Assembly: GCA_032358255.1 (NCBI GenBank)
Contig: JAULBX010017081.1
Span: forward strand, 25,519-89,518
DNA: 64,000 nt
Direction: 5' to 3'
Source of the DNA: Heterotrichella gracilis
Lineage: Eukaryota > Sar > Xanthophyceae > Tribonematales > Xanthonemataceae
Below, piece after piece: positions 1,719 to 61,530 of the stretch. Every line of letters begins with the position of its first letter. The first letter of the stretch is position 1. Under the pieces are notes generated by a model that saw only the letters and a program-made list of their open reading frames with translations, was not told the origin of the DNA and did no database searches. Made by a program: the position numbers and the translations under genes.

Positions 1719-4700
1719 ATGGCAGTGCCACACCGCCAGCTGTTCATCAACGGGGGCTGGGTGCCTCCGGTGCAAGGCAAACGCCTCGACATCATCAACC
1801 CGGCAACAGAGAAGGTGATCGGGAGCATCCCCGCCGCGACCAGCCAAGATGTGGACATGGCCGTGCAGGCTGCTCGCCACGCCTTCAAGCGTGGAAGCCC
1901 TTGGAGGAACACCACTGGAACCCAAAGAGCCGTATATCTCAGAGCGATCGCTGAGAAGGTAAACCTTCTACCCTGGTTGCTACTTGGTTTTTCCTTTCGA
2001 GGCATCCATGCATCAGGGTTTTCCACACAAGACTGGCCAGCTGTACCAGATGCCAGTCAGTCTTCACTCCCTGTTCTTCTTTGTCTTACACGCTGTATTT
2101 CGTTTCAGGTGAAGGAGAAGAAAGCTGACCTGGCAAGGCTCGAGACGATGGATATGGGCAAGTCTATCGGCGAGGCGGAATGGGACATGGATGATGTGGC
2201 TGGGTGCTTCGAGTACTATGCTGACCTGGCCGAGAAGCTGGACGCGTCCCAGGACGAGCCCATCGAAGTGGGCATGGAGGAGTTCAAGGTCACGTTGAGG
2301 CGGGAACCCATAGGCGTGGCAGCCCTCATCACACCGTGGAACTACCCCATGCTCATGACCACTGTAAGTGTAGGGTTTAGGGTTTCCACAACCCACCCAT
2401 CCTGTGCAGGCTGCCTGCTAGCACAGCTGAAGTGTGCCTCCTGTTAGGCTCCACTCCATGCAGGCTGCAGCTGCGTAAACCCTAAACCTCAGGCTGTAAA
2501 CCCTAAACCCTAAACATCTTTTCCCTTGTTCCTGCAGTGGAAGGTGGCCCCCGCGCTGGCTGCCGGCTCCACCTGTGTGCTCAAGCCCCAAAGCCTAGAC
2601 CTAAAAACGTACAGCCCTTACCCCCTTCTTCCCTCGTTTCCCTGCAGTGGAAGGTGGCCCCTGCCCTGGCTGCGGGGTGCACCTGCGTGCTCAAGCCCTC
2701 TGAGCTGGCCAGCATGACCTCCCTGGAGCTGGCAGCCATTGCTCAGGAGGTGGGACTGCCAGCCGGCGTGCTCAACGTGATCACGGGACTGGGCGGGGAC
2801 GCGGGGGCGCCCTTGAGGTGCGTGAGTTAACTGCCTGCATTTTAGCAATTCAGGCAGGTTAGCAGTCGGTGTTGCACATGCGGCGCCAAGCAGTTAGTTC
2901 TTGGCAGTGTTTATACCATTACCTATAATTATGGGCATCAGCCAAGGTGGGCCTGCCAGCTGGCGTGCTGAACGGGGCTGGGAAGGACGCTGGGGCGCCC
3001 TTGAGGTGCGTGAGGGAAATAGACACGGGGTAGACGTCCCTGTGCTGCCCTATTCTGGCGGCATTGTGGGTGCATACAAACCAGAAAAGGGTAGCCACGG
3101 CTGGTAGATGCATGTCCCCTGGGGTACACCGTGCCAAGCGCGTCACGTTCCCCAAACCCTTCCTCGGGGTTTTTCACGCGCCTCTCAAATCCTCACATGC
3201 CACATGCAGCTCGCACACCGGTGTGGACAAGGTGGCATTCACCGGCAGCGTGGCCACTGGGAGGGCAGTGGCGCTGTCTGCGGCCGCCAACATCAAGCCA
3301 TGCACCACCGAGCTGGGCGGCAAGTCGCCGCTCATTGTGTTTGAGGATGCGGACATTGAGAAGGCGGTGGAGTGGGCCATGGTGCGGCGCATTGCAAGAC
3401 ACTAATATTCATGACCTTTTGAATTTTACTGTGGGATTTTCATTCATGTTTTGGCACAGGTAATATACTATCGCAATGTAAAGGAGAAGAAGTATATCTC
3501 ATTACCATTGCATGGCTAGGCATTGCACGGTATTGGAATGGATGGGATAGAGCAGCTCATGCAATGCAATGGCACACTGCCCTCGCAGGCTGGCACCTTC
3601 TAGATCGCACCACCTTTACGCCTGCTGCTGCACGCGCCGAAGCCTTTTTGCGCAATATTCAAACGCCATCCGCCACCACAACATGCCCATTCAGAATCGA
3701 AACTAGCACCTCATGTGATTACGCGAGGCGGCCTCCTCAGCCACCCACCCCCTCACCCACCCCCGCAGTTTGGCATCTTCTGGACCAACGGCCAGATCTG
3801 CTCCGCCACCTCCCGCCTGCTGCTGCACGCGCCAATTGCCGAGGCCTTCCTGCGCCAGCTCAAGCTGCGAGCGGAGCAAATCAAGATCTGTGACCCCCTT
3901 GCCCCGGATGCGCGCATGGGGCCCCTGGTCAGCAAGGGCCAGTACGAGAAGGTCATGGGCTTTGTCAAGGTAGGAAGCGTAGGTTTTGGCTCAGGGTTGA
4001 GGGCAGCAAATGTTACAGTGACCTAGCATGGATGATTCCACCAGCACCCCCCACCCCACCCCACCCCCCACCGCAGGCGGGCGTCGCCGAGGGCGCCACC
4101 CTCCTCACCGGCGGCAAGCGGCCCCCCCACCTGCCCACCGGCTACTTCCTGGAGCCCACCGTATTTGTGAATGTCACCCCCGAAATGCGCATCTTGCGTG
4201 AGGAGATCTTTGGCCCCATCCTGTGCGTGATGACGTTCGGCACCGAAGAGGAGGCCATTGAGCTGGCCAACAACTCGGAGTTTGGGCTGGCAGCGGCTGT
4301 CATTTCGAACGATGAGGCGGTGAGTGGAGGGTTGGGTGGGGGTGTTTGGCTGTAGTGGTGGCGGTGGTGGGGTGGGTGGGGATGGGGGTGGTGTCATGGG
4401 GTGAAGATATCCGGCTCCTCTGTGGATGACCTTGGTGGGGTGGAAATTGTGCTGGTCAGCAACTTGCAGCTTTGGGCTAGCAGCTGCTTTGCTATCAAAG
4501 AATGAGACAGTGAGAGCATTCTATGAAGGTGTAGCCCTCCCCTCTTCAGCGCATGCATCCAAATGATACTTTACAATATCATACAAAATTTATATATAAA
4601 TTAGACACATTTTACCAACCGCTGAATCACCTTTCCCCTCAATCCTCTTTTCCACCCCGCAGCACCATACGTCTTCCGACATATGGTTGAGGCCATGGAG

Positions 4701-5033
4701 TGCAGCATCAACTGCTCAATCCTCTTTGAACCCTAAGCATACCCTAAACCCACCTCGCTGCCGCCTCTTTATACCCTAGGCAGAGCCCTAACCCCCCTCT
4801 CTCCGCAGCGGTGCAAGCGCATGGTTGAGGCGATGGAGTGCGGCATCACATGGATCAACTGCTCCCAGCCCACCTTCTGCCAGGCGCCATGGGGGGGCAG
4901 GAAGAACAGCGGGGTGGGGAGGGAGCTGGGCCCCTATGGGCTCAGCAACTACCTGTCACCTAAGCAAGTCACCACCTACTTGTCGCCCAACAAGTGGGAC
5001 TGGTACCCGGAGGCACCCAGCGCCAAGCTGTAA
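1719..5033 (+). CDS. BADH: Betaine-aldehyde / aminoaldehyde dehydrogenase (ALDH10), 7 exons
   Basis: NAD-dependent oxidation of betaine aldehyde or omega-aminoaldehydes, as in plant ALDH10 enzymes that make glycine betaine or degrade polyamines. Exons are 1719-1958, 2109-2363, 2648-2817, 3210-3381, 3769-3969, 4077-4319 and 4809-5033. All are GT-AG, phases add up, and the product is 501 aa, the usual family length. The N-terminus [12 protein letters not shown] is typical of ALDH10. The general-base Glu is in ELGGKSP (about residue 256) and the catalytic Cys in GQICSATSR (about 290), the normal 34-residue spacing. ITPWNYP and the FGP motif are also present. The start is the ATG just before AVPHRQLF; an upstream in-frame TTG is ignored. 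The protein ends in AKL, a PTS1-like tripeptide, so a peroxisomal location is inferred. Decayed duplicate exon edges lie in four introns and after the stop; they are not in the model. Confidence 0.96.
2525..2605 (+). pseudogene. Relic copy of BADH exon 3 start
   Basis: An acceptor CCTGCAG plus about 60 nt almost identical to the start of exon 3 ([10 protein letters not shown]), placed about 110 bp upstream of the real one and preceded by CCCTAAA repeats. Reading runs off into unrelated sequence, so the copy at 2648 is the functional exon. The copy keeps a usable acceptor and could cause mis-splicing. Confidence 0.85.
2944..3020 (+). pseudogene. Relic copy of BADH exon 3 end with donor
   Basis: Repeats the end of exon 3 (GLPAGVLN and GAPL regions) and its GTGCGTGAG donor, with a small internal deletion. 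It lies inside intron 3, downstream of the exon it copies. Confidence 0.85.
3581..3656 (+). pseudogene. Relic copy of BADH exon 5 start with acceptor
   Basis: CTCGCAG followed by a diverged copy of the first 65 to 70 nt of exon 5. The WTNGQIC codons are disrupted and contain a stop (TAG). It lies upstream of the true exon 5 acceptor. Confidence 0.8.
4655..4718 (+). pseudogene. Relic copy of BADH exon 7 start
   Basis: CCCGCAG plus a decayed copy of the exon 7 start (MVEAMEC then INCS, with the middle deleted). CCCTAAA tracts separate it from the real exon 7. Confidence 0.85.
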
Positions 5034-5111
5034 GTGGTGGAGGGAAACAAGGTGTTTTTGTTGGGACGGCGGGGAGGGGGCGGGGTAGAAGGGGGGGAAG
5101 GGGTGGGATAT

Positions 5112-8497: not shown

Positions 8498-9976
8498 ATG
8501 ATGCTCCCGCCCATCCTGGATGCGCAGGCCCCTGCCCTGCAGACCCTCGAGGAGGCGGGTGTGGAGCACGTGGTGCGTCTGATTCACAGGGGAACCCACA
8601 AGCAGCACCAGTTTTTGGTGCTGCAGCCCTTTGCGCCGCCCATATCCGTGGACCACCACAACCCCGCAACAGTGGCTGCCCTGTTTGGACAGCTGGCACG
8701 CACGCTGCGCGCCATGGCGGAAAAGGCACGAAGGCCCCTAAACTCTACACCCTATACCCTAAACATAAGTTGGTATCTTGCTAAACCCTAATCCCCAAAC
8801 CCTACACCCTACATTGGCACTCACGCTGCTCGCCATGGCACGCAAGGCATGAAGGCACCCTACATCCTGAACCTAAAACCCTAAACCCTGCTCGGGGACC
8901 TGGCGCTCACGTTGCGCGCCATGGCGGAACAGGCATGAAGGCACCCTAAACCATGAACCCTACACCCTAAGTCCTGTTTGGACAGCTGGCACGCACGCTG
9001 CGCGCCATGGCGGAAAAGACACGAAGGCACTTTAAACCCTAAACCCTAATCCCTAATCCCTAAACCCTGAGTTGGCACTCGCGCTCCGCGCCATGGCCCA
9101 CAAGGCTTGAAGGCACCCTAAACCCTAAACCCTTAAGTCGCACGCACGCTACTGGCCATGGCGCACAAGGCATGAAGGCGCCTTAAACCCTAAACCCTAA
9201 ACCCTAAGTAAGCACTCGCATTGCGCGCCATGGCCCAGCAGGCCGGCATGCTCCATGGCGATATCTCCCTTATTCCTAAACCCTAAACCCCGCTCTCGCT
9301 GCGCGCCATGGCGCACAAGGCATGAAGACACTCTAAACCCTAAACCCCGTGTGCAACAGGCGGGCATGGTCCATGGCGACATCTCCCGGGGCAACGTGCT
9401 CATCCACAACAACCACCTCTGCCTAATTGACCTCCAAGGGTCTTGCAGCCTCGATAGCGACACCCCAAGGCTGGTAACCCACCGCTACTCAGCGGTACTG
9501 GTCGACCAGGGCCCCTCACTGGCCGGGGATTTGGAGGCATCCCTGTACACGCTCATGGACATCGCCTCCAACGGGAGGCTGCACTGGAGGCATGCCTTGG
9601 GCGCAAGGTGGGTCAGTAATCATAATAATTTACATGCAATCCAGCAAGAAAGCCAGATCAGCAATCTAATGCCTTGCACAAGCGTGCGCCACCCAGCCCT
9701 TCCTGACATTGCTTGTACCATTTTTGTAGGGGGGTGAAAAAGGATAAGATCTACGCCATGACGTGGGAATTTGAGCAGCAGCTGCGGAAATGCAAGAAAC
9801 CCTACCAGGGGTTAATCAGGCGCCTGGCCGCGCTGTTTTGGACGGAAAACACCTGGGAGGGGGTCCCCCGCCGGGCGCCCCAGGGACTGGAGGCCAATGT
9901 GGGGATTGCGGAGGAGTTTGCCGCGATCTGCGACGATGAGGCCAGCAAGCTCAAAACCCTAAACCCTAAACCCTAA
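8498..9976 (+). CDS. Protein-kinase-fold protein, C-terminal lobe
   Basis: Exons are 8498-8725, 9360-9607 and 9730-9976; phases fit and the modelled product is 240 aa. HGDISRGN (about residues 81-88) is a catalytic-loop motif of the HGD type and LIDLQG (98-103) stands in for DFG. The order resembles FunK1-like or small-molecule kinases more than classic Ser/Thr kinases. The ATP-binding N-lobe is missing, so 5' exons probably exist upstream; a GCGCAG acceptor at about 8527 could start the exon instead of the ATG. Intron 1 has a GC donor (AAG|GCACGA) and an AACAG acceptor. The last codons before the stop come from CCCTAAA repeat DNA (TLNPKP end), so the natural C-terminus is uncertain. Substrate unknown. 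Confidence 0.65.
8726..9359 (+). repeat. Intron 1 of the kinase-like gene, built of exon-tail copies
   Basis: About seven copies of the last 40 to 50 nt of the preceding exon, each with its GCATGA/GCACGA donor, alternate with CCCTAAA tracts. They start near 8815, 8892, 8974, 9071, 9138, 9211 and 9288. The copy at 9211-9270 runs straight from the end of exon 1 into the start of exon 2 (RAMAQQAGMLHGD) with no intron between. Almost no other sequence is present. Confidence 0.85.
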
Positions 9977-9977
9977 C

Positions 9978-13090: not shown

Positions 13091-16000
13091 TCAAAGCTGT
13101 TTCCTGTCCGGCCCCCCCTCCTCGACCTTGACCGGCAGCAAGGGGGGTACAGGACTGTCTGGGGAGTGGTAGCGCCACAGCAGGGTGGCTGCTCGCCCCC
13201 CCATGAGCAGCGCCAGGGCCAGCCACACCCCTTGCAGACCCATGCCCGTGCCCTCCACCCCCAGGAGCGCGGCTACAGTGGCGGTGGCAGCCAGCAGCAT
13301 GGCACCTGGGACAGGGGAAATGGGGCGAATTAGGGTTTTAGACTAGGGGTTCTGCACATGAGGTTTTGAACAGCATTTATGGCGCAATGGTGCGAATGGG
13401 ACTGGGGTTTCACATTCCGGCATGTGGTGGCTTTATGAGCTCTAATCTTGATATAGATTGCCCGGGGGAGAGAAACCAATGCCACCTTTCAATGCCGGTA
13501 CCGACAGGCTCCAAGACCGCCATCCCAACCCACCTACCACGCACTTGAAGTGCAATGCCCCTACCATCCAGCACAAAAAAACTGCATGTGACCACTACCC
13601 AGGCAGCATTGGTCACCGTCAGCAGCAGGCAGCAGAAAAATACCCCATCCTCCACCACCACTACCACAGCCACCACCACCACCAACCACCTGCCACAACA
13701 ATTGACGTCAGACGCACCCACCAGCACCCCATCCAGCACATAGACCACAGCATTCACCGCCACCCTGGCCATCACTAGCGGCAACAGCAACAACACATCT
13801 CATCCTCCACCACCACCACCAAGCCACCACCACCACCACCCACCTGCCAGGAACTTGAAGTCCGAGGCCCCAACCAGCACCCCATCCAGCACATACACCA
13901 CCGCGTTCACCGGCAGCATCGCCACCGCCAGCGGCAGCAGCGAAAACACCATCGCATCCACCGCGGCATCGTCCGTGAAAATGGTGGGGATCAGCGGCGC
14001 AGCCGCCGCGTAGCCCAGCGCCAGCGCCACACCCATGGCTACCCCCAACTCAAGGAGTCGGTCCGAGACTGCGCGTGCGCGGTCGGGGCGGCCCTGGCCG
14101 AGGTTGGCGGCCACGAGGGTTTGGCCGGAGATGGCGAGGGAGTCGACCACCATGGAGGAGAGCAGCCACAGCTGCATGAGGATCTGGTGGCTGCCCGCAG
14201 GGACCGCACCCAGCCTGCAAGAAATAAGTTCTTCAGTGTTTAGGGTACTGCGGGGAAGGGTGGCATTGCCAAGTGGAAGCAGTGTGCGGGGCAAAATGCT
14301 TGGTATGGGTTTAGGGTGTAGGGTTTAGGTGAGGGAGTCCACCACCATGGAGGAGAGCAGCCACAACTGCATGAGGATCTGGTGGCTGCCGGCGGGGACC
14401 GCACCCAGCCTGCAGGCAGATGTAAGGGTTTAATGCTCAGGCCATTGTGCGACGAAGAGGGGTGCAGTGCCAGGGGGTTGGGTGTGGGAAAGGGTGGGAG
14501 GGTGTGTGTGGGTACTATGCATAGGGGGTAGGCAAGCCACTCAGCCACACAGGCGGTCAGCAGCAAGGCTAGGGTTTTCGCACCTTGTGGCGGTGGCCGC
14601 AGCTAGGGTTTTCGTCCCCAGCAGGAGCGCGGTGCGCATGAGGACAGCCCCCCCTGCCTTGAGCAGCGGCGCATACTCCTCGTATAGCTTGTCCAGTTGG
14701 ACCGATGGCGGGGGCCACATCACTGCGCGAGCCATGGGTGCGGCTTAGGGTTTGCTACGTAGGTACAGGGTATAGGGTTTAGGGTTTAAGGTGAACAGAG
14801 GTTGGGGTCACGTCGCTTTGACAGCCAGGCGTGGTAATTCAATTTGGGCATGGTAGTTCAATTTGCAAAATGTGCAGCCCACAGTGCGAGGGTGATGCCG
14901 CACAAACCCCAAACCCTACACCCTACACCAAGAACCCTACAATTCTACACGCCAATTTGCTCCTGCTTTGCCTAAGATGAGCATACCGTCCCGTGTGCAT
15001 GCCTGCAACGCACGATGCACACCAAAACCCTAAACCCTAAACCCTACAACTCAACGCACCTATTTGCTCCTGCTTGGTGGTCAGGATGGCCAGATAGGCA
15101 ATGGCAGCCACCCACTCGGCAGTGGTGGTGGCGATGGCGGCGCCGTTGGGCCCGTACCCCCACCCAAAGATGAGCAGGCAGTCGAGTGCCAGGTTGATCA
15201 GGTTGGCGCCCACGGTGATGTAGAGCGGCGTGCGCATGTCTGAAAGCCCCCGGAACAAGCCCTGGCCTACTGTCATGAGGAGCACCGCGGGCGCCGCTAT
15301 CGCCCTGCATGGGGAGTACAGAGAATCACATTTTAGCAGGCAGGGCTAGGGTGTTGAGCAGATACAAGTCCTGCCCACATACAGGGGTACACTGCGTCAA
15401 CCCTTTAGGGTTTAGGGTTTAGGGTCAAGCTCATGTCCGACAGATCCCGGAACAGGCCCTGGCCTACCGTCATGAGGAGTACCGCGGGAGCCGCTATCGC
15501 CCTGCATGGAAAGGGCATACGGTTTAGGGTTGTGCACGTCTGACTGCTAATCTGGCTGAATTGCTGGAATGCATATAACCAACTAACTAACATAACCAAA
15601 CGGTTCCGCGGCTTATCAGACATGCGCATGCTTAGACCCTAAACCAAACCCTAAACCCTAACAGGGTGGGCGTTTATGGGCAGAACTTGTAACCTGCGCA
15701 GCAAACTCGCCCCGCTTGCTGACTCTGACTGTAAAAGGCAACCTAGTATATCCTTGTGGAACATCTCTTGGTAACACACTCCTTGCCTGTATTGGAGGCA
15801 TTTCCGGGACCCTGGTGCAGACCGCATGCACCCACACCCCGAACCCCGAATCATAGACCCTACACCCCTTGCCAGTACTGCTTGTACTCTGCCTGCAGAC
15901 CTCCCCGTCCCCACCACTACCCCCACACCCCCACGCCCTCAACCCTACATCCCCCCTTGCCTGTATTGGAGGAACTCCAGGGACACTTCGTGCAGGCTGC

Positions 16001-18662: not shown

Positions 18663-21600
18663 ATGACAGCGCTGGCCAGCCTGCTGACGAGGCCCAGCAC
18701 GCTCACGCACTGCGGCAGGGCAGTCTCTGGCACCAGTCGACGCAGCTTGGCCCCCAGGCCCCTGCTGCAATGCCCCCCCGAGCTCCTGCGTTCGTGGCCC
18801 GTCAAGCTTGGGATGAGGTCTCTTCGGGCGAGCCAGCTGAGGCCGATGCTCCTTGCATCGAGGTGTACCGCTTGCCATGAGCCCACCGCGAATGGGAAAC
18901 CCCATGCCCACGCCCATGGGCCCCATACACACACACCGTCCTGCTTTCAAAGCATGCGCAGCGCTGCAAGGAACTGGTCAAGGAGCTTCAGCATCGCGGC
19001 GGTGGGGGGTGGCGGTGGCAGCGTGGGGATTGGGAACGGCTTTGGTGGGGGCGGGGACGGTGGGGGCGGTGGGGCAGGTGCCAGTGCAGAGGGTGTGGAG
19101 GCAACCACTGCCCTGCCTCTGGATGTTGACAAGGCCATGGAGGAGGTGGTCCTGCTGGATGTGTCAGGTAAGAAAGCCTTGCATTTTCATTACGATGCTC
19201 TGCTTAAGCTGGATGCTGCACCTACCAAGTGGTTATGTTGGATTTGGTGTTGGGTGAAGCTTACAGCGCCAGCAGTTGGCGCTAAGGTCAGGGCCACGCG
19301 GGCTGACATCACCCAGTAGGACCTTGAATGCGCAAACATCAGCATGCTGTAAGTTAGGACCAGGGCACATCCTTTTTTTGCGCGGCTTTTGCATAGCTGG
19401 CTGCCATCTGGCTGTGCTGACGGAACGCATTGGTTACAATGCGTTGGATTTTTCCTGTACACATGCGTGGCGGTGGTGGGTGTTATTGCGGTATCGTGCA
19501 CCGCCTTGCACACCCCAGTGCCTAACCCAGCCCCCCTGGTGCAGGCATGAAGTGCGGGGGCTGCGTGAGCCGCGTGCGGCGCATACTGGAGGAGCAGACG
19601 ATGGTGAAGCAGGTGCGAGGCGTTTTGAACCCTAAACAATTACCCCTAAACCTAAACCCTCGCACCCCCTGCATACCGGAGGAGCAGACACTGGTGAAGC
19701 AGGTGAGAGGCATAGCAACCCATGGCGCGGCCGCATTGGGCATTGAACCCTAAACCTAGACCCTCGTAGCCACCCATGGCAAGCGTGGACCAGGTGGGGC
19801 CAACCAGGCCATTAACCCCTAAACCCTAATTCTCCCGCCCCCTGCATACTGGAGGAGCAGAACATAGTGAAGCAGGTGTAGCAACCCGTTGCGTGCGGGA
19901 CCAGGCGGGTCCCGACCTGGCCAACCTGGTCATTTAAACCCTTCAAGGCTGCTGTTAAGCTCAACCCATGACACTGCATGGCAATGTGTCACAGCGTTGT
20001 GGTTGTGCCATAAAACCCTGACGCTAAACCCTCCCGCCCTCTGCAGGCTGCGGTCAACCTGGCCACCGAAACCGCGCTGGTGCGCGTTCTGATGCCTCCT
20101 GGGGCGCCTACCGGCAAGCAGGTGGATGGTGCGCTGGCCACAGTGGGGCAGTCACTCGCAGAGGTAAGGAGAGCATGACAAATCCCCAGGAGTTGGCATA
20201 TTAAAGAGGCAGGAATGCATGCACATGGGGTGTCGGCTCGTGGTGCGCTGCATTAAACGAGGCTCGTGGGGTTGGAATAACAAGCTTTTGGTGAAACTGA
20301 GGAGGTTTTGCCGGAGGTGATTTCATTTATCCCCTCTGGACGCCTATGATAACGTTCCTTAAAATGTATAAACCATACACTATAATAATATCTAGACATG
20401 CGCGAACGAGTGGCGTTGACTTGCAGCCCGAAAGTAGTGTGGGTACAAAGCAAAGGGTTCGGTGGAGTTTGCCAGTAGGGATAGGGTTTGCCACGAGGGT
20501 TTAGGGTTGGGCACCAGGGGCACAGGGTTTGCTGTGCTGGTTTAGGGTTTTGCCGAGGTCGGCAACGTTTTTCCATCTTTTGGTGCGTGTTGGAGTTTTG
20601 AAGTGTGGATTTCTGGGTTTTCGGGGAGTTGTGTTGACGTTTTGGATGGGGCATGGCACAGGTGCTGACGGGGTCTGGTTTCAAGTCGGGTGTGCGGTGC
20701 GTGGGGGTGACCCAGGCGCTGCTGGCGCAGACGGGGCATAGCCTGGCATAGGCAGGGCATAGCCTGGTGCTGGCAGGGCAAAGCCTGGTGTAGATGAGGC
20801 ATGTGGACATGGCTTGACATGACGGGGCATAGCATGCGGGCGTGGCTTGCCATAGACGGGGCATAGCATGCGGGCGTGGTTTGCCATGGACGGGGCATAG
20901 CATGCGGGCGTGGTTTGCCATAGACGGGGCATAGCATGTGGGCGTGGCTTGGCATGGACGGGGCATAGCATGCGGGCGTGGCTTGCCATAGACGGGCATG
21001 CCTTGGTGTGGGCTGGGCGCATGTGGTGCTGGCTGGTATCGCTGGGGCATAGCCTGGCATGGGCGGGGCATAGCTTGGCAGAGGGAGGGCGTAGCTGGGC
21101 CATGGTTAAGGTCCCCGGACATCTGCTTAGGGGCAGCACAGACTTGCCTGGCATAGTAATGGCAATGGCTTTTCCCAGAGAGTGATATCGTTCGGGGCAA
21201 GGACCCCGTGCGATTTGGGCCCCTGCCAGGTGTCAGGCACTAACCTTGACGGCATGCCCTGAATAAACACTTGCGGTTTGTTTTGGATGAACATTAGGGA
21301 GTGGCGCGGGGCGCCGCTGGCACAGAAGGGCCATATTGGACTTGCATTTTGCATGGTTGACTGGCAGCGTCAGTGTCTAGGTAGGCGTTTGCACAGTGGC
21401 AGCACGCATGTAGCGCATGTATCGAGGGTGAGCTAATTAGGAGTGTGCAAGCGGAAGTGGGCCACTGCATAGGGGGCCTTGCACCCACATGTGAAGGGGC
21501 TGGGTCTGTGCAATTTGATGTCCTTGTAATGGCTCCAGCAAGCCGCCTGGAAGTCTGGTCGTCGGTCAAGAAAGGCTTTTGTGGTGGTTTGGCGAGGAGA

Positions 21601-37739: not shown

Positions 37740-38326
37740 AGCAATGCACTACAGGTGGTCCCACCATGCTACACTTCAGTCTGTCACAATACACACTACT
37801 AGACTGGAAAACCGCTGGACGCCAGCGTGTTAGTGACTTGCTGGTCAAACAACACGGTCAGGAAGGTGCTTAGGGTAGAGTGGGTGGCATGGGTGGGTGG
37901 GTGGGATGCACGATGGTATACACATGCACTGCAGGTGATCTGGCATGGCGTGAGATTGCAGGCATCGCCCGGTCCGAGCTTCTGACATACCTAGCAGACG
38001 GCGCAAAGCCCCTTGCAAGCAGGGCCAGTGCGAACCATATTCGTAACGACCCCATTGCCAACGCTCATGTGCGCACGTGCTGCATGGCGCAAACAGGGTT
38101 CGAGGCTTCACGGACGGAACTATAGAGGTTTTCGATAGCCGCCGCGGCGCAGAGGTCCAAATAAACTAGCTATAGCGATCACTTTGCAGGACAGGAGTGT
38201 TGTGTAGACGATACACACCACCAGCTACTACTATGGGCCTTCACCCCTTCGGGAAAGTTGTGCTTTGTGTGCTCGATCTCTGACGTAATGTGTAACTGGT
38301 CTCGGTGGAACTTACGTCATTCAATG
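37740..38326. other. Region 5' of the glycosyltransferase-like gene
   Basis: Should contain its first exon and promoter, which I cannot place. A (GGGT)n-like run lies at 37880-37910. No other gene is recognised. Confidence 0.4.
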
Positions 38327-41898: not shown

Positions 41899-44800
41899 GG
41901 TCCCAGACCTTCCAAATTATCCTCATGAACAGCAGCACCCACATCCACAAGACGTTTATCACGCAAACGGAGCCCAACCTGCACGACGTGGCAGTGGCAA
42001 CCCCTCTGACCCTGGAGCGCGCACTGCACCCCGAGCGGTTTCCAAAGCTGTTCTACACGGCCCACACCACAACCCTGAGGCTGGCGGCTGGCAGGGAAGC
42101 TAGCGTGGGTCAGCTGGTGACCATCAGCATCCCCATGCTGGCGGTGGTCCACAGGCGGAACAGCCTGCAACCGCGGTACACCCTGCAGGCAGGTCCCCAT
42201 AACCCTAAACCCTAAAACTCTAAAAACCCTAAAACCATGTAGCATCTCCGCGCTGGCGGTGGCCTGCAGGAGGGAAACCCTGAAGCTGCGGTACACCCTA
42301 CTGGCAAGGTCCCCAAAACCCTTATAACTAAACCCTAAAAGCATGTAGCGTCCCCGCACTGGCTGTGTCGGTCACAGGGGGAACAGTCTGCAGCCGCTAT
42401 ACGACACGCTGCAAGCAGGTCCAAAAACCCTAGATTATAAACCCTACTTCACTACTCACAGCCACGTTACACCCTGCAGTAAGGTCTCTAAGCAATAAAC
42501 ATTGAAATCCTCAGCAATAAAAATAAAACCAAACCCTATACCCTAAACCCTAACCCCAGCCTTGCCCCACGCTGCAGGAGGTCCAGGGCGGCTTCCTGCT
42601 CTACCTGCGGTCACTCCAGTCTCACAACATGCCAAGCAAGGCAACAACCAGCCCCTCCCCCCTGCCATCAACAACACCCACCCGGGACCAGTCAAGCAAG
42701 TCCAGCGACGCAGCACCCACCCTCCAGATATCCGTGTGCGCAAGCTCTCAGACTACACAGCCCCTTGCCTGGGGTTCAGCCATCCAGTGCGCCAGCACCC
42801 AGCAGCTCGCCAGGCATCCAGGGCTTGTCAGCGTCCAGTGCCAGGCGCTGGCGCCAACCCCAAGCCTGGGGACAGCGCAAGGAGGAAACGGTAAGGGACC
42901 CTAAATCCTAACTCTAAACCCTACACCTAAACCCTAAACCCTAAACCCCAGGTGCTCGCCAGCGCGCAGCGCCAGCTGCTGGCGCCCACCCAAAGCCTTT
43001 CGACAGCCCAAAGGTTAAGGAGGAAACGGTACCCTGTAGCCTAAGATATAAACCCTAAACCCTTATCCCTGAGCCCCAAGCCTCTTGGCAGCCCGAGGAG
43101 CGCAAGGAGGGGATGGCAAGGGACACAGTGGGCAATGGGAGATGCGCATGGCTTCTGTTTTCACCCCTTTATTGCTACGCCTTTTTCCTGCCCCATTTTG
43201 CAACTCCATTTTGCTACGCATTTTTGTTTCCTTTGCTCAACCAGCGCGCTTGTTCAGGGACAGGCTGCATGTTTTGGCGTTGATTATCACCTGTGTATTC
43301 ATTTATTTGTTCATATTACTGAATTTATAATTGGATAAATGACAGGGGGGAAGCTCAAGGCGCCCTGCGGCAAGGCCAGGCGACTGGCGGGAGTGCAGCA
43401 ATGGCTGGCAACACTGCTGAAGATGGCACAGCAGACAGGAGCGGGGGCACAGGTGGTGCGGAGGTTCCTCGCATTCCTGTGCAAGGTGAGGGTATAGGGT
43501 TTTGGGGTTTATGTGTTGAGAATCGCGCAGCAGACGGGCGCAGGAGGACAGGCGATGCGGAGTTTCCTTCAATTCCTGTGCAGGGTGAGGCTTTAGGGTT
43601 TTACGTGTAGGGTTTAGGGTTTGTGCTTGAGGGTCGCACAGCAGGAGGGTGCTGCGGAGGATCCTGTGCCAGGTGAACGTTTTGGGTTTATGGATAGGGT
43701 TTAGGGTTAGTGTCTCGAGGGTTATGCGGTAGGCGGGCGCGGGGGCACAGGCGCTGCGGAGGTTCCTTCAATTCCTGTGCAGGGCGAGGCTAGGCGCAAT
43801 TGCATGGATGAGCAGGGAATCCTGGTGGCTAGGCTGCTGAAACTGTAAACATCTATAGGTGCTTGAGGAAGTTTTGGGTTTGGCTGAGCCATGCGTGCGG
43901 TTTAGGGTTTGGGGGTTAGGGTTTAGGAGCACCAAGTGTGCCAGTGGCCTTCCTTGGCACTGTGTTCCCTGGCTGCTTACACACCACACCGTACCATAAA
44001 CCCTAAACCTTACACCCTGAACCCTAAACCCAGAGCCCTAAACCCTAAACAGTGCTGTTGTTAACGCACCGCCTCGCCCCCCGGCAGCTCCCCCGCTTCT
44101 GCCTGGTTGCGCTGTGAGCTAACGGTTTAGGGTTTGGGATCCAGGGTTTAGGGTTTTAGGTGGGCGCCATGCAGTCAGCATCATGTTCACTGGTCTCACC
44201 TGGCACCCCTTCCTGTTTGGTATATAACACACAACTCCCCCCCCTTGCGGCTATCTCGCTATACTGCAGGAAGCATGAAACTAAGTAACCTTCCCCCCTT
44301 GCAGCTCCCGCGGTTCTGCCTGGGTGCAATCGTCACGCCATGCAGCGGGCCCCGCGCACACATCCGTGCGCCCCCCACCAAGCCCCCCACCGACTGGTGC
44401 GCCGTGATCGAAGCAGACTTGGACAAGGCAAGGCAGGCAATGCTGGCCAACCAGTACACACCAGGCGCGGTGTTTGGGACCCCATACACACTGGACTTCG
44501 TCTGCGTGATCGACATGCACCCCCAGCCCACCGCCTCCACGCCCGCAAAACCCTCCAAGAACCTTGTCGCCAGCCCAACAGTGATCGTGGAGGAGGCCGC
44601 AATCCCAGACGCCATCCCCAGCCCCTGTCCCAGCGGAATCCCCATCCCCAGCGCCATCCTCGGCAATATCCCCAGCCCCATCCCCAGCCTCATCCCGGTC
44701 CCCAGCTCCATCCTTATCCCAACGCCCATCCCCACCCTCGTCCCCAGCCCCAGCGCCAGCCTGGTGTCCATCCCCACCCCCATCTTCATCCCCAGCCCCG

Positions 44801-48300: not shown

Positions 48301-48611
48301 CTGTTGGTGCAGGAGCTTCCATCACTTGGTGCAAAAGAACCGCACCCCAAGGCCCTACTAGGTCACGTCGCTGCTATACCGCGGCATAGCCTAGGCCAAA
48401 GGCAAATCGGGCCAGCGTGCAAAGCCGTGGGCTACAAGGGCATTTCTGCAACCAAGCGCCAGCAAGCACAGCCATGGATCAGGTGTGGCTCATAGCCGGC
48501 AGGCCTGCACTTGTTTGCCATACAAGGCACTGGCAACGTTAGGGTTTAGAGATTAGGGTTTAGGGTTTAGTGCGCCATTGCCATGCGTGGCGCACTAAAC
48601 CCTAAACCCTA
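45301..48611. other. Intergenic DNA
   Basis: 45440-46250 is AT-rich and holds nothing recognisable. 46350-46480 has four or five spaced copies of TAGGCTAGGG(T)TTT-like units. A plus frame at 47538-48044 (168 codons) has protein-like parts (FVTPTETSYIPKTHQFW) but no family or splice support. Short inverted repeats (CAGGTGAGACGG with CCGTCTCACCTG) lie at about 47728 and 47820. A palindromic CGCACTAAACCC junction lies at about 48540-48610, just before the U-box gene. Confidence 0.45.
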
Positions 48612-51600
48612 ATGCCTAATGGCACCAAGAAGCATTCCGCATCGAACAAACCCGCTTGCCCCGTGATCCACTTCCCTTTTTTTCTTATGATGCAGGCCCC
48701 AGCCACCCCAGCAGTGGCGCAGCAAGATGACCCGCAACCCCCCGACATGTACAAGTGCCCCATCACCTCCTGTGTCATGTGGGACCCCGTGCTGGCCCAG
48801 TCAGGCAGGATCTACGAGCGCGCAGCCATCCACAAGCATTTCACACTAAACGGGCCCACCTGCCCAATCACGCGCCAGCGCCTCGACCCCACGGTGCTCA
48901 CCCCGGTGTACCAGCTGCGTACTGCCTGCCGGGAGTGGATTGAGGCGCACCCAGACCACCTCGACAACCCCCCGGAGGAGCTGCGGGTTGAAGGGGAGTC
49001 TGCCCTGGGCCCCACCAGGGCCCAGCCCCAGTCGCGCAGGCCCAACCAGACCACCTTCTCCAACCCCATCGGCCCCTTCACCATCATATTTGTAGTGTGC
49101 TGGGTCACGTGGCTGGTGGTGGTGGTGGCCCAGTGGGTGGCTGCCTTGTTTGAGCAATTGGATGCCTACCTGGCTCCTGCTTCAGCCAATGGGGGGCGCC
49201 AACGGCGCACCCAGCATACGGCTGTGAACGGAGCAGAGGGGCAAACCCTAACCGACCAAGGGGAAACCCCTCGGGAGACGCAGGGGGGGGCGCGGGGTGC
49301 ATCTAGTACATCCCCAGTGGGCCCCGCAATAGCGCCCCATGAGTGGATGGCCTTATTCTCCACGCTGGCTACCGTGTTTTTCATGCGATGGGCCCTCGGG
49401 AGTTGGCTTCGCACCCTGCTGGCAGTGCTTGGCCTCTTGGTCCCGGGGTTACTTCAGAGGGTTGCTGTGTGGTGGAGGACTGGCCCAGCCAATGCAGGGG
49501 TTGTGGATGCCGCAGGACGCGCAGTCGTGGATGAAAGGTGCGTGCAATCTACATGTACAAAAGGATGCATTGCAACTACATGTGACAACTCACGCGTTTA
49601 CATTTACCTTTGACAATTGAATGTGACAATTACAAATGACAATTGCACGTGACAACTACATGGGACAATTACATGTCACAATGATTGAAAATGCCAATTA
49701 TCAATGAAGGGTTGCAGGCACAATGGGATAGTTGGAAGGAAAGGCTAAGCCCTAAAGTGACGTTCACACTCCACACTCGATTAAGGGCCTGGTGCTTAGC
49801 GAGGAGGGTTTGGGCCTTAGTTGAATGTCACCACATGTTGCCTTCGGTGAAACGTCTTAGCATGACCGAAAAATGCGTCTTTACAGGAGCGTGCTGTTGG
49901 ACCTGGCAGAAGCGGTGGACCCAGGTGGCTCCAGGCTGGCCTGAAACCCTAAGCCCTAAACCCTAACCCCAAAGAAATGTGCGCCTTTACAGGAGCGTGA
50001 TGTTGGATCTGGCAAGGGCGGTGGACCCAGGTGGCTCCAGGCTGGGCTGGCCCTCAACCATCAACCCTGTACCCTAGTGCATGGAGCACATTCCCTGTGC
50101 TAAGGTTTCCTGGCAGCCACCCAGTCAACACAGCCCTTGAACATATGCTAACAGAATGTGTCTTTACAGGAGCGTGATGTTGGATCTGGCAAGGGCGGTG
50201 GACCCAGGTGGCTCCAGGCTGGGTTGGCGGGATGATCTGCCACTGGAGGAGTGGGACGGAGTGATTTTGGAGGACGGCCTCGTGGTGGAAATCAAGTAAG
50301 ATGCAGCATAGACTTTTTACATATTTTCATTTTTTATGTAGAAAACAAAAACAAGAAAAATTACTGATTAATAACTTTGAGTGTGAAGCCTGTACATGCC
50401 TAGCTGTGTTGATGATGCACATGGGTGGATTGCCTTGCATGTGTGTTGATGTTGTCGTGGTCAGGTACATGGCAGAGCAACAGGCATGGCGTGCTCAGAT
50501 GAAAATGTGGTTTTTGCAGGTGGGGAGGCAAGCGCCTCCCCGGGGTTCTCCATGCCTTCCCTGAAGGCCTTGCCTACCTGCCGGCGCTGCGCACCCTGTA
50601 CGTATCATAAACCCTAAATCCCTAACCCTGAACCCTAAATCTGTAAGTATGGCACAGATGGACTGTGCACATAGGACTGTGCGCATGACCACAAGCTACA
50701 TGCATACATGCTGCCATTCATTCTATGGACATTAACATTATAACAGGAATTAATATAATTTTTTATTATGGCGAATGAGCGCTTGCCCATCGATGGAATT
50801 GGCACCACGCATTAGGGTGTAGGGTGTAGGCCATCATTGATCTTAGCCGCGCTCACCGCCTCTTTTACCACCCTTGTAGGTGGCCCCATGAAAACCAGTT
50901 CTTTGGGCCGCTGCCGTCTGCGTGGGGCAGGCCAGGGGCGTTCCCGCAGCTGAAGGATCTGTGAGTTTCCACTTGGCCAACCCTAAACCCTATTTCAAAA
51001 CCCGAATGCATGGTGTCTGCGTGGGACAGGCCAGGGGCGTTCCCGCAGCTGAAGGAGCTGTGAGTACTAATTTGGATAACCGTTAACGCTATACCTTAAT
51101 GCATGGTGCCCTGCGTGGGGAATGCCAGGGGGTTTCCGGAGCTGAAGGTGCTGTGAGTAGCCATGCATGGGGGCTCCTATTATGCCACACCCCAATGCAC
51201 ACCACTCCTGCCATGTGCTGCTCACCAGCCCTCGCCCATGTACACCCTTGCTCACCGCCTCCAAGGTGGCCCTTGCGAGTGGTGTACAGAAAAATAAGTT
51301 AGGGTTTAGAGTTGAGGCCTTCATGTGCCATGTCTCACCACCACCTGTACTGACCCTTGCTGGTGGTTTTTAGAGGAGATTCAGGGTTTAGGGTTTAGGG
51401 TTTGGTCCTCACCCGTGTCCACCGCGCTCACCACCTACACCACCCCCTGGGGTGCCGTGTCCCATGCAGCTGTGTACAACAATGAGTTGGGGTTTAGGGT
51501 TTAGGGTTTAGGTCCTCACCCATGTCCTCCCCGCTCACCACCACCTGGGTCACCTTGCAGGCTGCTGGATCACAACATCCTGAGTGGGCCGCTGCCTGCT

Positions 51601-54600
51601 GCGTGGGGCAGTGAAGGGGCCTTTCCACAGCTGGAGAAGATGTGAGTGGCTGCTTAGGGTTTAGGGTTCAGGGTTTAGGGTATTTTCAGCTGCAGCCCAG
51701 ATGCGTTTCCACAGCTGGAGAAGATGTGAGTGGCGATGCATGGTGACGCCCAATACTCAACTATGCCACCCTTGAGCACATCACCCCTGCCGTGTCCACC
51801 ATCCTCACCACACGCAGGGTCCATCTCGCAGGTGGCTCCATTGCAGCCGCCTGTGTGGGCAGCTGCATGCTTAGGGTTCAGGTTTTAGGGTTTAGGGTTT
51901 TCGTTCCTGCAGCAGATGCGAGTGGCCATGCAAGGCGTCTCCCACTCATGCGCCGCGCCTGCCATGCATTGCTCGTCAATCCTCACCCACGGGCCCCTCA
52001 TTCTCACCACCACTGGGGTGGCCCTTGCAGGTGGTTCCATTGCAATCGCCTGAGTGGGCAGCTGCCGGCTGCGTGGGGCGGGCCAGGGGTGTTTCCACAG
52101 CTGCAGAAGATGTGAGTGGCTGTTTAGGGTTTAGGGATTAGGATTTAGGGTTTTTTCAGCTGCAGCCCTGGGGTGTTTCCACAGCTGCGAGGGTGAGTGG
52201 CTGTTTAGGGTTTAGGGTTTAGGGTTTCCGCAGCTGCAAAAGGTGTGAGTAGCTGTTGAGGGTTTATAGTGTCCACAGCTGCAAAAATTGTGAGAAGCTG
52301 TTTAAGATGTAGGGTTTAGGAGTTAGGATTCCTTCAGCTGGAGCAGATGTGAGTGGCCATGCATGATGTCTCATAGCATGCCAAAACATTTATATATATA
52401 ATCAATAACTAATTAAATATCATGCCGCCCTGATGCATCACCACCTGCCAAGCATTGCTATTCAACTCTCACCCATGCCCGCCATTTCTCACATTACCGG
52501 GGCCAACCTCGTAGGTGGCTGTATGGTATCCAGCTGAATGTGTAGGGTTTTGGGGGGTAGCGGGTAGGGGGTAGGGGGTAGGGTTTAGGCCCTCACCCAT
52601 GTCCACCGCGCTCACCGCCTCCGGTGCCATCCTTCCACCAGAGTTGTCATCTCAAGTACTTATTTCGTTTTTGCAGGTGGCTGTATGGTAACCAGCTGAA
52701 TGGGCCGCTGCCGGCTGCGTGGGGCAGCGCAGGGGTGCTGCCACATCTGCAGGAGCTGTGAGTACCCACTTGGCTAACCCTGAACCCTAAACCCTAAACC
52801 TTCAACCCTAATCCATGGTGTCTGTGTGGGGCAACGCAGGGGCATTTTCGCATCTGAAGAAGATGTTTCCACTTTTAGAGGAACCGTGAGTGTCCACTTG
52901 GCTCCCCCTGGACCCGAATGCATGGTGTCTGCCATAATGGCGACCCAGTGCATCACCCCTGCCGTGTGTTGATATCCAGCCCTTGCCCGCATCCACCAAG
53001 TTCACCTTCTGAGTCAGCACATTGGCGGGCAGCGATGTCTTCACAGCACTTTGAGCTGTTTAGGGTAGTTAGGGTTTAGGGTTGCTGAGCTCAAAGGCTT
53101 GTTTAGGGTTTGACGTTTAGGGTTTTGGGTTGCTGGAAATCGAAATGCTGGAATGGGCAATGTCTCTAAACTCACATCCCTAAACCCTAAGCATGGCAAG
53201 AATGAGCCATGTCCACTCAAAACCCTTAATCCCTAAACCCTAAACCACTGGGGTCAGTGAGACTTCTAATGTTGTGAGTTGCCCATCAACTCATACCCAC
53301 GCAGAGGTGGGCCGTATCTTCAAACCCTAAACCCTAAATACCAAATGAGCCGTGCCCACTGTATCAACTTTGCTTGGGTCATTCTTGCAGGCTGCTCTCT
53401 GAGAACCAGCTGAGTGGGGAGCTGCCTGCTGCGTGGGGCAGCCCCGGGGCATTCCCGCAGCTATATCAGCTGTGAGTGGCCATTTGGCAACCCTAAACCC
53501 TAACCCTAAACCCTGATGCATGGTGTGTGCGTGGGGCAGGCCAGGGGCGCTTCCACAGCTATATCAGCTGTGAGTAGCCCTTGGCCAACCCTAAACTCTA
53601 ACCCTAAACCCTGATGCATGGTGTCTGTGTGGGGCAGGCTAGGGGCATTCCCACAACTCCTTAAGCTGTGAGTAGCCATGCATAGTGCCTCCCATGATGC
53701 AACCCCCAATGCATCACCGCCTGCCATGTGTGCCATGTGGTACTTGCCAACCTTCACCCATGCCCACCATGCCCAACACCACCAGGGCCACCTTACAGAT
53801 AGGAGCTAGGGTTTAAGCTGTAGGGTTACAGAAAAGAGGTAGGGTGAAGGCAGCAGGGTTCAGCCCTCGCCCATGTTAACCATTCTCACCATTACCATGG
53901 CCACCTATGCAGGTGGCTTCACCAGAACCAGCTGAGTGGGCTGCTGCCTGCTGCGTGGGGCAACCAAGGGGCGTTTCCACGACTACAGCAGATGTGAGTA
54001 GCATTGGGGTTTAGGGTTTAGGGTTTAGATTCCTCAGCCCAGGGGCGGTTTCGCGGCGACAGCGGATGTGAGTAGCTGTTAGTGTTCATGTTTTAGGGTT
54101 TAGGGTTTAGGATTCCTCAGCCCAGGGGCGTTTCCACGGCTACAACAGATGTGATTAGCGTTGGGGTTTAGGGGTTTGGGTTTTAGTTCCTCAGCCCAGG
54201 GGCGTTTGCGCGGCGACAGCGGATGTGAGTAGCTGTTAGGGTTCATGTTTTAGGGTTTAGGGTTTAGGATTCCTCAGCCCAGGGATGGTTTCGCGGCGAC
54301 AGCAGATGTGAGTAGCTGTTAGGGTTTAGAGTTTAGGGTTTAGGGTTTAGCTTCCTCAGCCCAGGGGCGTTCCGCGGGTACATCAGATGTGAGTAGCATT
54401 AAGGGTTCATGTTTTAGGGTTTAGGGTCTACGTATTCAGCCCAGGGGCGTTTTCTCGGCTACAGCAGAGTGAGTAGGCATGCATGGTTGTGCCCAGCACG
54501 CAACGTCATACCTGTTGTGTTCCTGAGCAGAATCTGTTGTGCTCCAAATAAAGCAGATTTTTTGGAATGTTTCCGGGCAATTTGCATTTTTATAGGTCAT

Positions 54601-59515: not shown

Positions 59516-60559
59516 GCAGCTCAGGCTGGGACTTGTGGTGGTATAACCTGTACCTCTATCAGCAACCTTCAAGATCCCCACACAAAGTTTGTATGATTGG
59601 GCAGCCAATGTTATGTACTGTTGCATGAGCAGTTGTTAAATTGCATACTATATTCAGGGTCCAGGATGGGCTTAGATATGGTTAGTGGTGATCTGTGAAC
59701 CCTCATGCTTGTGACATTCTTGTGCCCAGCAGTTTAGACCCAAGTTTGTCGACGTTGGCTCAGCCGAGATAGTGTCTATGCAGTGGTAATGCATCATTAG
59801 TGCAAGTTGAACCGCAATGATCCTGGTCATCATATGATGTCAAGCACACCCCTGATGTTTCCTCCACTGTAAACACACGCAAACCCCTGGCGCATTCAGG
59901 CACAAGTAACACAACTTGTAACAGCTGTTGCACACCCCTGCCCTCGCATTCATGCTCCCTCTTTGCACCGGAGTTACTGTGCCTCCCCTGCCCCACCGCT
60001 GCTGCCCTCCCCTGCACCACTATTGCTGTGCCCCCCCTGACCCGCCAAGTGGCGCCTGAGCCACCACCTCCTCCACTGCCTGCCAGATGATGTATCGTTG
60101 TTGAATACTCCCCCTCCAAATTAATAGTAACATCAACTCCTCTTCCACTGCCTGCCAGATGCTGCTGGCCCCTTCGCCGTCAACCGTCATGCAGGCAGGG
60201 TTGCAGCCAGAATGTTGCGCAGCTGATGTAATTTGGTTGATCACCCTGCCCGCCACCAAGCATAACCCTTGACCCTTTGCTGCCCCAAACACTGTGCGTT
60301 TAAAACAAAGAGTGAGCACATATGTCGAGGATCTCAGAGTGTTAACAACGTCCTCCACTGATGACAACATCCAGAATCACTTGGACACCTGATTACGTAC
60401 AGTCCAGTTGGGAGTGTGTTACCAGCACGTGCCCGTTCTACCTTTGGCAAATGCCCAAGGACAGCAGCTTGAATTGCAAGTAAAATATCGTGGCCTGCCT
60501 ATGATTATCCAAGATGCTGCCGTGACTTTGCACATAAACATGCCATGGTCACTGGATGA
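59516..60559. other. Intergenic DNA
   Basis: No gene is recognised. A 22-bp unit (CACTGCCTGCCAGATG core) occurs twice, at about 60074 and 60149. C/T-rich stretch at 59930-60070. Minus-strand frames here (59760-60119 and 60020-60370) lack family features. Confidence 0.4.
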
Positions 60560-61530
60560 TCACCCTGTACGTATCCTAAACCCTATATCCCTAACCCTAA
60601 ACCCTAATTTGAAGCATGTTATGAAGGCCTTGCGTATCCCAAACCCTAATTCCCTAACACTAAACCCTATTCCCTGTAAGTATGGCACAGATGGACTGTG
60701 TGCATAGGAGTGTGCGAGTGCTACATGCTACATGCATACATGCTGCTGCAATTCGCACGCTTGCCCATCGGTGGAATTGACCCTGAGGTCAATGCCCACC
60801 TCGTTTTGTTAGCTGTTACCATTACCATCCATGCGTAGTGACTCCCACCCCAATGCATCATGATCACCGCATGGCAGTGCCGCACTGGGCCATGTATGCC
60901 ATGTGCTCCTCGCCCTCCGTCACTCATGCCCACCTAGTCCACCGCGTCCCACCACCACCGGTGTGACCCTTGCAGGGGGTTTACAGTATTTGCAGAGGAG
61001 AGGTAAGGGCTAGGCTGTAGGGTTTTGGCCCTCACTGCTGCCCACCCAGCCCCCCACCAACGGGGTCACCCTTGCAGATGGCGTCACCAAAACCAGCTGA
61101 GTGGCCCCGAGGTAGCTGCAAGCTGAGTTGGGCAGCCCTGGAGCGTTTCCTCGGCAGCACGATGTAAGAGACTCCCAAAAACGAAAATTGTCCGGTTGGT
61201 AATTACTATGGACATATACTTCCCACATATATTTTCCATTTTGTTACTTTCCGTTACACAGGAGCTGTGAGTAGCCATGGCATGACTGACTGCACCCAAC
61301 ACACCACACGTACCACATGTACCACACCGCAGCTGCAGCGGATGTGAGTGGCTAGAGTGGCCAGGCATGGTGTACATGGTGTCTCCCACCATGCCAAATA
61401 AGTATATAAATTATAAATTTGAATGACTAGCTATCATGTTACCTAGATGCGGTATTGCCTGCCATACACTGCTCGTTGATTCTCAACCACAGCCACCATT
61501 CTCACCACTACTGGGGTCGATGTGGCAACC
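60560..61530 (+). pseudogene. Decayed duplicate of part of the U-box-LRR gene
   Basis: 60565-60770 aligns with the intron after exon 3 of the LRR gene (50595-50800: CCTGTACGTATC, TAAGTATGGCACAGATGGACTGTG, CGCTTGCCCATCG.TGGAATTG). 61070-61170 is a broken LRR exon (TCACCAAAACCAGCTGAGTGG, then the end and a GATGTAAG). 61375-61510 aligns with intron bases at 52370-52500. Frame is lost and the 5' part is absent. The FAS1 gene lies between parent and copy. Confidence 0.8.

Follow-up and report, generated by a model that had tools for sequence, protein, structure and literature searches.

Copies of exon edges in adjoining introns of Heterotrichella gracilis, with telomere repeats at many of the joints

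The introns of the alga Heterotrichella gracilis (Xanthophyceae) carry partial copies of the exons that border them. We analysed a window of 64,000 nucleotides, part of contig C172 (GenBank JAULBX010017081.1) in an assembly of 68.5 Mb and 903 contigs (GCA_032358255.1). In this window the start of an exon, together with its acceptor, is copied upstream of that exon, and the end of an exon, together with its donor, is copied downstream. The spacers between original and copy are rich in the telomere repeat TTTAGGG or its complement CCCTAAA. The copying is real and extends beyond the window; about a quarter of the examined introns assigned to the main organism carry it. How does the edge of an exon come to be doubled, and why are telomere repeats found at the joints? 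We tentatively favour a mechanism in which staggered breaks at exon edges are filled in and sealed, sometimes after a telomere repeat has been added.

Copies of exon edges in adjoining introns

Exon borders have to be known independently of the repeats if copies are to be placed relative to them. For an aldehyde dehydrogenase (ALDH) gene and a P-type ATPase gene in the window, borders were taken from alignment to solved structures, and for CCT/TCP-1 genes elsewhere in the genome from Pfam matches; splice sites were then fixed by reading frame and consensus. This yielded 46 intron models, of which 38 were kept and eight dropped (for a score below 3, a deviation above 6 or, in the ATPase gene, by choice). 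At a score of at least 36, 10 of the 38 donor edges and nine of the 38 acceptor edges are copied into the adjoining intron, whereas shuffling under a first-order model gave no hit of either kind in 190 introns. The match is confined to the exon interior in two of the nine acceptor cases. An initial annotation, made from the letters alone, had claimed that exon edges are copied into the adjoining introns, and these counts confirm it.

The same holds in a larger set of 180 introns, made up of the 38 and of introns predicted by a small gene finder seeded with them; predictions that overlapped the homology-set introns or fell outside 60-1500 bp were excluded. The finder reproduces 32 of the 38 exactly, which is not an independent test since it was trained on them, and the rates from this set are estimates because most of its predicted introns lack confirmation by homology. 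Copies that span the junction are found at 26 donors and 18 acceptors, compared with 0 of 360 shuffled comparisons, and copies of the exon interior alone at two donor and two acceptor edges. Counts against shuffled controls, of the kind that the annotation had called for across the assembly, support it in this sample beyond the window. Its claim about sides also holds: among 138 exons lying between two used introns, 13 starts are copied upstream and 23 ends downstream, with one copy of each kind on the wrong side (36 right, 2 wrong). In the main-organism set of 162 introns, junction copies occur in 38, namely 12 of the 22 in the window, where 15 junction-spanning edges are copied in the introns that could be modelled, and 26 of the 140 outside it. 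Identity between copy and source ranges from 72 to 100%, so that copies of every age are present.

The copies are direct and local. When the window was compared with itself, with telomere units masked, 131 direct and four inverted pairs scored at least 44 within 1.5 kb; at distances of 5-6.5, 10-11.5, 20-21.5 and 30-31.5 kb there were 0, 3, 0 and 0 pairs. A further sample of 20 loci (193 kb), 12 picked for CCT genes and eight at arbitrary places (L021-L028, on contigs selected for having a telomere match), gave 64 direct pairs, no inverted pair and five pairs at 3-4.5 kb, a lower copy density than in the window. Repeated local direct duplication across exon-intron borders had been proposed for positions 1719-61530, and that span is a fair outline of the affected region.

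Could the copies be an artefact of assembly? All of the evidence comes from assembled contigs. Yet the copies are of every age and lie on the correct side of their exons, and none turned up in L009, L011 and L019, three loci of this assembly that are distinct in composition (18 introns, with a single telomere heptamer among them). We regard an artefact as extremely unlikely. On the main axis of trinucleotide composition the three loci cluster at one extreme, with L023 far out at the other, and the sequence before their acceptors is poorer in C and richer in T; they may come from another eukaryote in the assembly or from a different part of this genome. Intronless aldehyde dehydrogenase genes, which swamped the search for the ALDH family, lie on contigs that are probably bacterial (C1, C68, C111 and C222 of G000).

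The genes and copies in the window are given below. All percentages are identities. Start and end of the dehydrogenase gene come from the gene finder, which placed the end of the first exon at 1862 rather than 1958.

1719..5033 (+): aminoaldehyde/betaine-aldehyde dehydrogenase-like gene, 7 exons; spliced model from a phmmer match to 3iwj_A (E 7.6e-163) in seven collinear stretches
1719-1958, 2109-2363, 2648-2817, 3210-3381, 3769-3969, 4077-4319, 4809-5033 (+): exons of the dehydrogenase gene, spliced model
2480..2514 (+): CCCTAAA tract (units at 2480, 2501 and 2508) just 5' of the next copy
2521..2588 (+): acceptor-type copy (intron end plus exon start) of 2629-2698, 87%, 5' of its exon, from the edge-copy comparison
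2945..3014 (+): donor-type copy of 2748-2826 (exon end plus 9 bp of intron), 80%; no repeat of the intron part found
4446..4514 (+): donor-type copy of 4257-4324 (exon end plus 5 bp), 75%
4683..4710 (+): in the intron upstream of its exon, copy of 4821-4848 (inside the exon start), 93%
22095..27549 (+): copper-type P-type ATPase gene, from homology and gene finder
22708-22955, 23130-23331, 24030-24271, 26599-26861, 27298-27549 (+): ATPase exons set wholly or partly by homology; the others come from the gene finder
22436..22584 (+): ATPase, donor-type copy of 22239-22383, 83%, intron part repeated too
23421..23552 (+): ATPase, donor-type copy of 23201-23337 (exon end plus 6 bp), 92%; a third, older copy at 23616-23668
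23740..23856 (+): ATPase, acceptor-type copy of 23997-24111, 91%; its spacer holds CCCTAAA at 23882-23895
24365..24523 (+): ATPase, donor-type copy of 24160-24320, 80%
26390..26494 (+): ATPase, acceptor-type copy of 26586-26690, 92%; the unit is repeated as a whole, with CCCTAAA at 26572
26930..27014 (+): ATPase, donor-type copy of 26788-26869 (exon end plus 8 bp), 79%
27194..27241 (+): ATPase, acceptor-type copy of 27293-27340, 83%

Further arrays are present in stretches that resemble kinase, MATE and leucine-rich repeat (LRR) genes, read by eye or from pairs only, and other copies border exons placed by the gene finder alone.

8815..9332 (+): kinase-like gene, array of decayed copies of 8680-8735 with CCCTAAA tracts between them; splice site not set by homology
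9236..9269 (+): kinase-like gene, copy of the exon start 9354-9387, from pairs and partly by eye
14331..14414 (-): MATE-like gene, acceptor-type copy of 14136-14219, 95%, spacer ending in a telomere tract
15429..15509 (-): MATE-like gene, acceptor-type copy of 15232-15312, 89%; its spacer holds (TTTAGGG)3 at 15404-15424
19671..19711 (+): donor-type copy of 19581-19621, 90%, with a second copy at 19844-19878; exon from gene finder only
42241..42422 (+): two donor-type copies (42241-42315 and 42347-42422) of 42126-42199; exon from gene finder only
Within 43514..44110 (+): donor-type copies 43514-43590 and 43736-43792 of 43415-43494; exons from gene finder only
44077-44110 (+): acceptor-type copy of 44294-44327; exons from gene finder only
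51600..54476 (+): LRR-like stretch with long arrays of exon-end and donor copies as well as TTTAGGG/CCCTAAA tracts; type of gene and limits of exons read by eye
53429-53679 and 54010-54476 (+): arrays within the LRR-like stretch, from pairs and by eye

Telomere repeats at the joints

The window contains CCCTAAA 96 times and TTTAGGG 71 times, where dinucleotide frequencies predict 4.2 and 4.6. Across the assembly (CCCTAAA)2C occurs at 4222 places and its reversed control at four. Arrays of eight units are found on 11 contigs, on six of them no more than 138 bp from the contig start, and because of this position TTTAGGG is very likely the real chromosome-end repeat of this organism. Perfect internal runs of 14 bp or more extend up to 29 bp in the window and the sampled loci.

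These repeats are concentrated between the copies. In the window 77 of 167 telomere units fall in spacers between copies, where circular shifting predicts 12.7, and in the 20 other loci 19 of 88 do so against an expected 2.75. The initial annotation was therefore right to place telomere tracts at the joints. A heptamer is present in 29 of the 38 main-organism introns with junction copies and in 46 of the 124 without them (p 3e-5), and the enrichment persists among introns of at least 250 bp (p 3e-4). Starting instead from the repeats, we picked by hand 18 (CCCTAAA)2-3 sites on the contigs at the top of the listing, of which two are separated by some 560 bp; five of the 18 lie between direct copies, compared with 136 of 4000 random points, exons included (p 3e-4).

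Direction is marked in many spacers as well. Forty of the 44 spacers were compared, those shorter than 14 or longer than 160 bp being left aside. Reading outward from the exon, TTTAGGG occurs in 17 of the 40, CCCTAAA in four and the reversed motifs in none; for the 26 spacers outside the window the counts are 12 for TTTAGGG and two for CCCTAAA. Within 60 bp of copy-free edges TTTAGGG is found at 19 of 242 (p 2e-7 against the spacers), CCCTAAA at 12 and the reversed motifs at 13 and four. In three of the four CCCTAAA spacers the tract lies near the inner end (2, 7 and 10 bp); in the fourth it lies 40 bp away. Direction alone is not diagnostic, because introns begin G-rich and finish C-rich (in the 38 homology-set introns the first third has 34% G and the last third 35% C) and reversed motifs are skewed alike. 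For that reason we dropped telomere orientation across all introns as proof of priming.

Do the spacers share anything besides the telomere unit? Compared with each other, the 40 have only G-rich simple sequence in common, which speaks against a shared mobile filler; nor do they show the common sequence expected of introner elements, a comparison that covered spacers rather than whole introns. Among 112 perfect runs of at least 14 bp, in which runs within arrays are not independent, the register of the start is about even, and that of the end is weakly biased to TTT (32 of 112). The end bias persists in 26 of 90 run ends that have no telomere motif close behind, and might fit a template boundary or slippage to TTTTAGGG.

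One source suggested by the annotation was slippage between interstitial telomere repeats; if two tracts slipped or recombined unequally, the segment enclosed by them would be duplicated. Tracts do flank many units in the arrays, and slippage could enlarge arrays that already exist. A first copy is another matter. The inner end of the source lies in the exon, so a tract would be needed there, and exons are poor in telomere heptamers (0.73 per kb, against 13.8 in introns and 9.3 in the rest). Moreover, 20 of the 40 spacers are free of the heptamer. As a general explanation we consider slippage quite improbable.

Limits of the copies and candidate mechanisms

The copied unit, X, consists of roughly the last or first 20-130 bp of an exon (16-131 bp as measured in the source) and the adjacent splice signal. 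It is separated from its copy by a spacer, S, mostly of some tens of base pairs. The product reads exon-X-S-X-intron at a donor and intron-X-S-X-exon at an acceptor. In 18 of 26 donor copies the intron contributes no more than 9 bp, mostly 2-9, and the exon share has a median of 70 bp. One example is the exon end at 4659 of a CCT gene (locus L014), where a pair 98% identical stops 4 bp past the splice site and the spacers are unrelated.

If whole units had been duplicated in tandem, S should be repeated along with X. We examined this in 41 of the 44 pairs (three with spacers below 20 bp were dropped), calling S repeated at p < 0.01 and not repeated at p > 0.05. S is repeated in 7 of the 19 pairs that are at least 85% identical, not repeated in nine and unclear in three; in older pairs it is repeated in 5 of 22 and not repeated in 13. 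Over all testable pairs, S is not repeated in 22 of 41. In simulations of tandem units, S could still be detected in 40 of 41 at 8% divergence per copy, in 39 at 15% and in 30 at 20%. Because S recurs in some pairs and is missing from others in spite of this expectation, two geometries coexist: tandem duplication of the whole unit, and an X-S-X structure in which the exon edge alone is doubled. The tandem geometry that the initial annotation described accounts for the first of these and not for the second.

The broadest alternative is that plain tandem duplication strikes everywhere, that only events at exon edges are both tolerated and visible for long, with selection holding one copy, and that the intron part decays or is overwritten, telomere repeats being merely common in introns. 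S is repeated in 12 of the 41 testable pairs, clearly so at 5760 of locus L020 and at 26598 and 22357 of the window; in the arrays at 53429-53679 and 54010-54476 the intron part recurs along with the exon end; and duplications inside exons would presumably be purged. Against it stand the nine younger pairs without S, where the simulation at the two lower divergences expects S nearly throughout, and the 98%-identical donor copy that ends 4 bp past its exon. Pairs confined to the intron are found in just seven of 180 introns, although these would decay from both sides and be harder to see. The heptamer enrichment in copy-bearing introns, which survives at 250 bp and above, also argues against a mere abundance of repeats. 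We treat plain tandem duplication as a possible but doubtful account of the whole pattern.

Gene conversion offers a variant in which the duplications are old and tandem, the exon part being kept similar by conversion from the exon as the intron parts drift. Under it, similarity should break off sharply where the constrained region ends, and S should be similar in some pairs and not in others. However, the highly similar copy at 23421-23552 has a frame-breaking deficit of five bases of its own, and the copies at 5760 of L020 share differences from the exon (by eye), so that copies there seem to descend from copies. This variant is improbable.

The limits of the copies also recall the proteins that bind splice sites. 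U1 and U2AF leave footprints there, and the copied part ends where binding is expected: 2-9 bp into the intron in 18 of 26 donors, and at acceptors a median of 19 bp. Repair of a break in an intron might then be templated by nascent pre-mRNA of the same gene, with fragments shielded by splicing factors being copied in. The copies observed are direct and local; inverted pairs number four in the window and none in the 20 loci. Nor does any of 182 intron models contain a copy joining two exons, and we judge a pre-mRNA template very improbable. By eye, 9222-9269 in an intron of the kinase-like gene, outside the junctions so examined, continues without a break across what is presumed to be the exon-exon junction (frame LRAMAQQAGMLHGDIS), which would fit a former absence of this intron or the insertion of a spliced copy.

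The mechanism we favour starts from what is seen directly: the copies, their side, their ends at splice signals, the telomere repeats in spacers with their direction, and the repetition of some whole units. From these we infer nicks, fill-in, an enzyme that adds the repeat, and selection. Two nicks on opposite strands, one just past the splice signal and one within the exon, would leave complementary 3' overhangs spanning X. Filling in both overhangs would double X. The 3' tip that leaves the exon would be G-rich (GTGAGG..., or the complement of the C-rich acceptor), and such a tip is a plausible substrate for both telomere addition and fill-in; it could receive TTTAGGG before fill-in, after which the ends would be joined. 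X-S units could later multiply by tandem duplication, giving the cases in which S is repeated. Edge events would survive because one intact splice site stays on the exon. We give this scheme of staggered breaks, fill-in, telomere addition, joining and later tandem growth a little short of an even chance. Break repair with capture of telomere repeats, the other source named in the initial annotation, is upheld as a good candidate.

Several observations weigh against this scheme. Eight of the 26 donor copies reach 14-58 bp into the intron, and acceptor copies are less sharply limited, with an intron part of 2-60 bp and the median already given; masking of telomere units shortens some of the measured overhangs. 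The 12 pairs in which S is repeated are what plain tandem duplication predicts. Half of the spacers lack the heptamer, and therefore telomere addition is not required; likewise, 13 of the 18 sampled telomere sites have no straddling copies. In 11 of 17 spacers TTTAGGG starts no more than 8 bp from the splice end, a count only modestly above the 6.65 obtained by rotation (p 0.016). The direction of motifs in introns overall tracks a skew in base composition that reversed motifs share (GGGATTT-type motifs lie near seven donors and no acceptors), and in copy-free introns the direction effect is not significant (p 0.39). Three loci with photosynthesis genes (LHC and RBCS; L039-L041) have no edge copies: of the two direct pairs in them, neither has telomere repeats at its joint and neither, so far as it was read, lies at a splice edge. 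Finally, all comparisons lie within one genome.

Neighbouring features, precedents and meaning

Other features of the window stand apart from the copies. An intronless open reading frame of 415 amino acids at 36501-37748 (-) has a weak xyloglucan fucosyltransferase match, below the family cut-off, and no relative in the protein collection at E <= 0.001. The reading frame at 48606-49613 (+) has a U-box domain (E 2.1e-17), and 20799-20996 is a tandem repeat of 34 bp (5.9 copies, 90% match) whose consensus does not contain the telomere unit. Compared with plasmid records, the window gave no match. In the assembly as a whole, the families of the RuBisCO small subunit and LHC are present; the RuBisCO large subunit was not found. 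Chains 1ir2, 9hvm, 7jfo and 1gk8, mostly from Chlamydomonas, are the best matches to the small subunit, which suggested a probable chlorophyte.

The steps of the favoured mechanism have precedents. In mammals, telomere repeats have been inserted at double-strand breaks, sometimes with a duplication of the flank that is ascribed to staggered breaks (PMC2246262, PMC7215372). The flank is duplicated at 4.6% of 130 rodent and 16% of 25 primate loci (PMC2246262), and at 4.5% of 66 horse loci, where the repeats were inserted at staggered breaks (PMC7215372). Those interstitial telomeric sequences resemble the joints described here in their short internal runs, their filler and the direct duplication of the flank, and in the passages at hand they are tied to staggered breaks and telomerase. 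Here too, short exact internal runs occur far above chance and the target is directly duplicated at some of the sampled sites. In mammals, however, flank duplication is a minority outcome and those passages do not tie it to exon edges, whereas here 5 of 18 sites lie between copies and the flank is mostly an exon edge.

Fill-in has a precedent of its own. In human and mouse cells, CST-Pol alpha-primase fills in complementary 3' overhangs to give small tandem duplications, and the same complex serves as the telomere fill-in machinery (PMC8355091, in the parts available to us). Those duplications are direct, local, tens of base pairs long and independent of sequence, and the copies here are likewise direct, adjacent and tens of base pairs long. 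They arose at induced breaks in mammalian cells, and the parts available mention no telomere spacer; here telomere spacers lie in many joints.

In the potato RdRp gene, a tandem duplication across one intron-exon border, as here, made a new intron (PMC4974935). That case concerns a single locus and a new intron, without telomere repeats in the parts of the paper seen, whereas in our case it is introns already present that appear to lengthen, 38 of the 162 in the main organism. Intron gain of the AGGT type by tandem duplication also doubles exon sequence next to a splice signal, but predicts copies that read through the exon-exon junction. We set this model of intron birth aside, since none of the 182 intron models has such a copy and the single possible one is that noted by eye in the kinase-like gene. 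Break repair has also been connected with the gain of introns in Daphnia, where the new introns have short repeats (PMC3488318, from the portion consulted). Plant telo boxes, according to the sections of PMC3022908 considered, are short telomere motifs in genes, mainly in 5' regions, that act in expression; they share with our case the presence of telomere motifs in genes, but here many tracts lie between repeats in introns. The literature searched (titles and the starts of abstracts, with subscription papers mostly outside it) holds no report of genome-wide exon-edge copies with telomere joints. This agrees with the statement in the initial annotation that no such process was known to be described in green algae, and is weak evidence that the splice-edge pattern is without precedent.

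A bolder idea, which we think unlikely, is that splice borders are break hot spots in this lineage and that their G-rich tips are treated as short telomeres. Telomerase would add TTTAGGG, the telomere fill-in machinery would copy back into the exon, and end joining would seal the break. If this were true, introns would grow outward from exons as a side reaction of telomere maintenance, which would supply their G-rich starts and C-rich ends.

For gene finding the copies have a practical consequence: copied splice signals, some of them intact, sit close to the real ones. More broadly, the findings point to faulty break repair as a route of intron growth. The lengthening of introns and the part played in it by break repair have mostly been deduced from a few loci with faded traces (PMC4974935, in the portions seen). 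Here about a quarter of the introns keep the trace, the source segment is known, and many joints bear a mark of telomere-strand direction. This makes the connection of intron growth with break repair and telomere addition something that can be counted in one genome and tested in culture.

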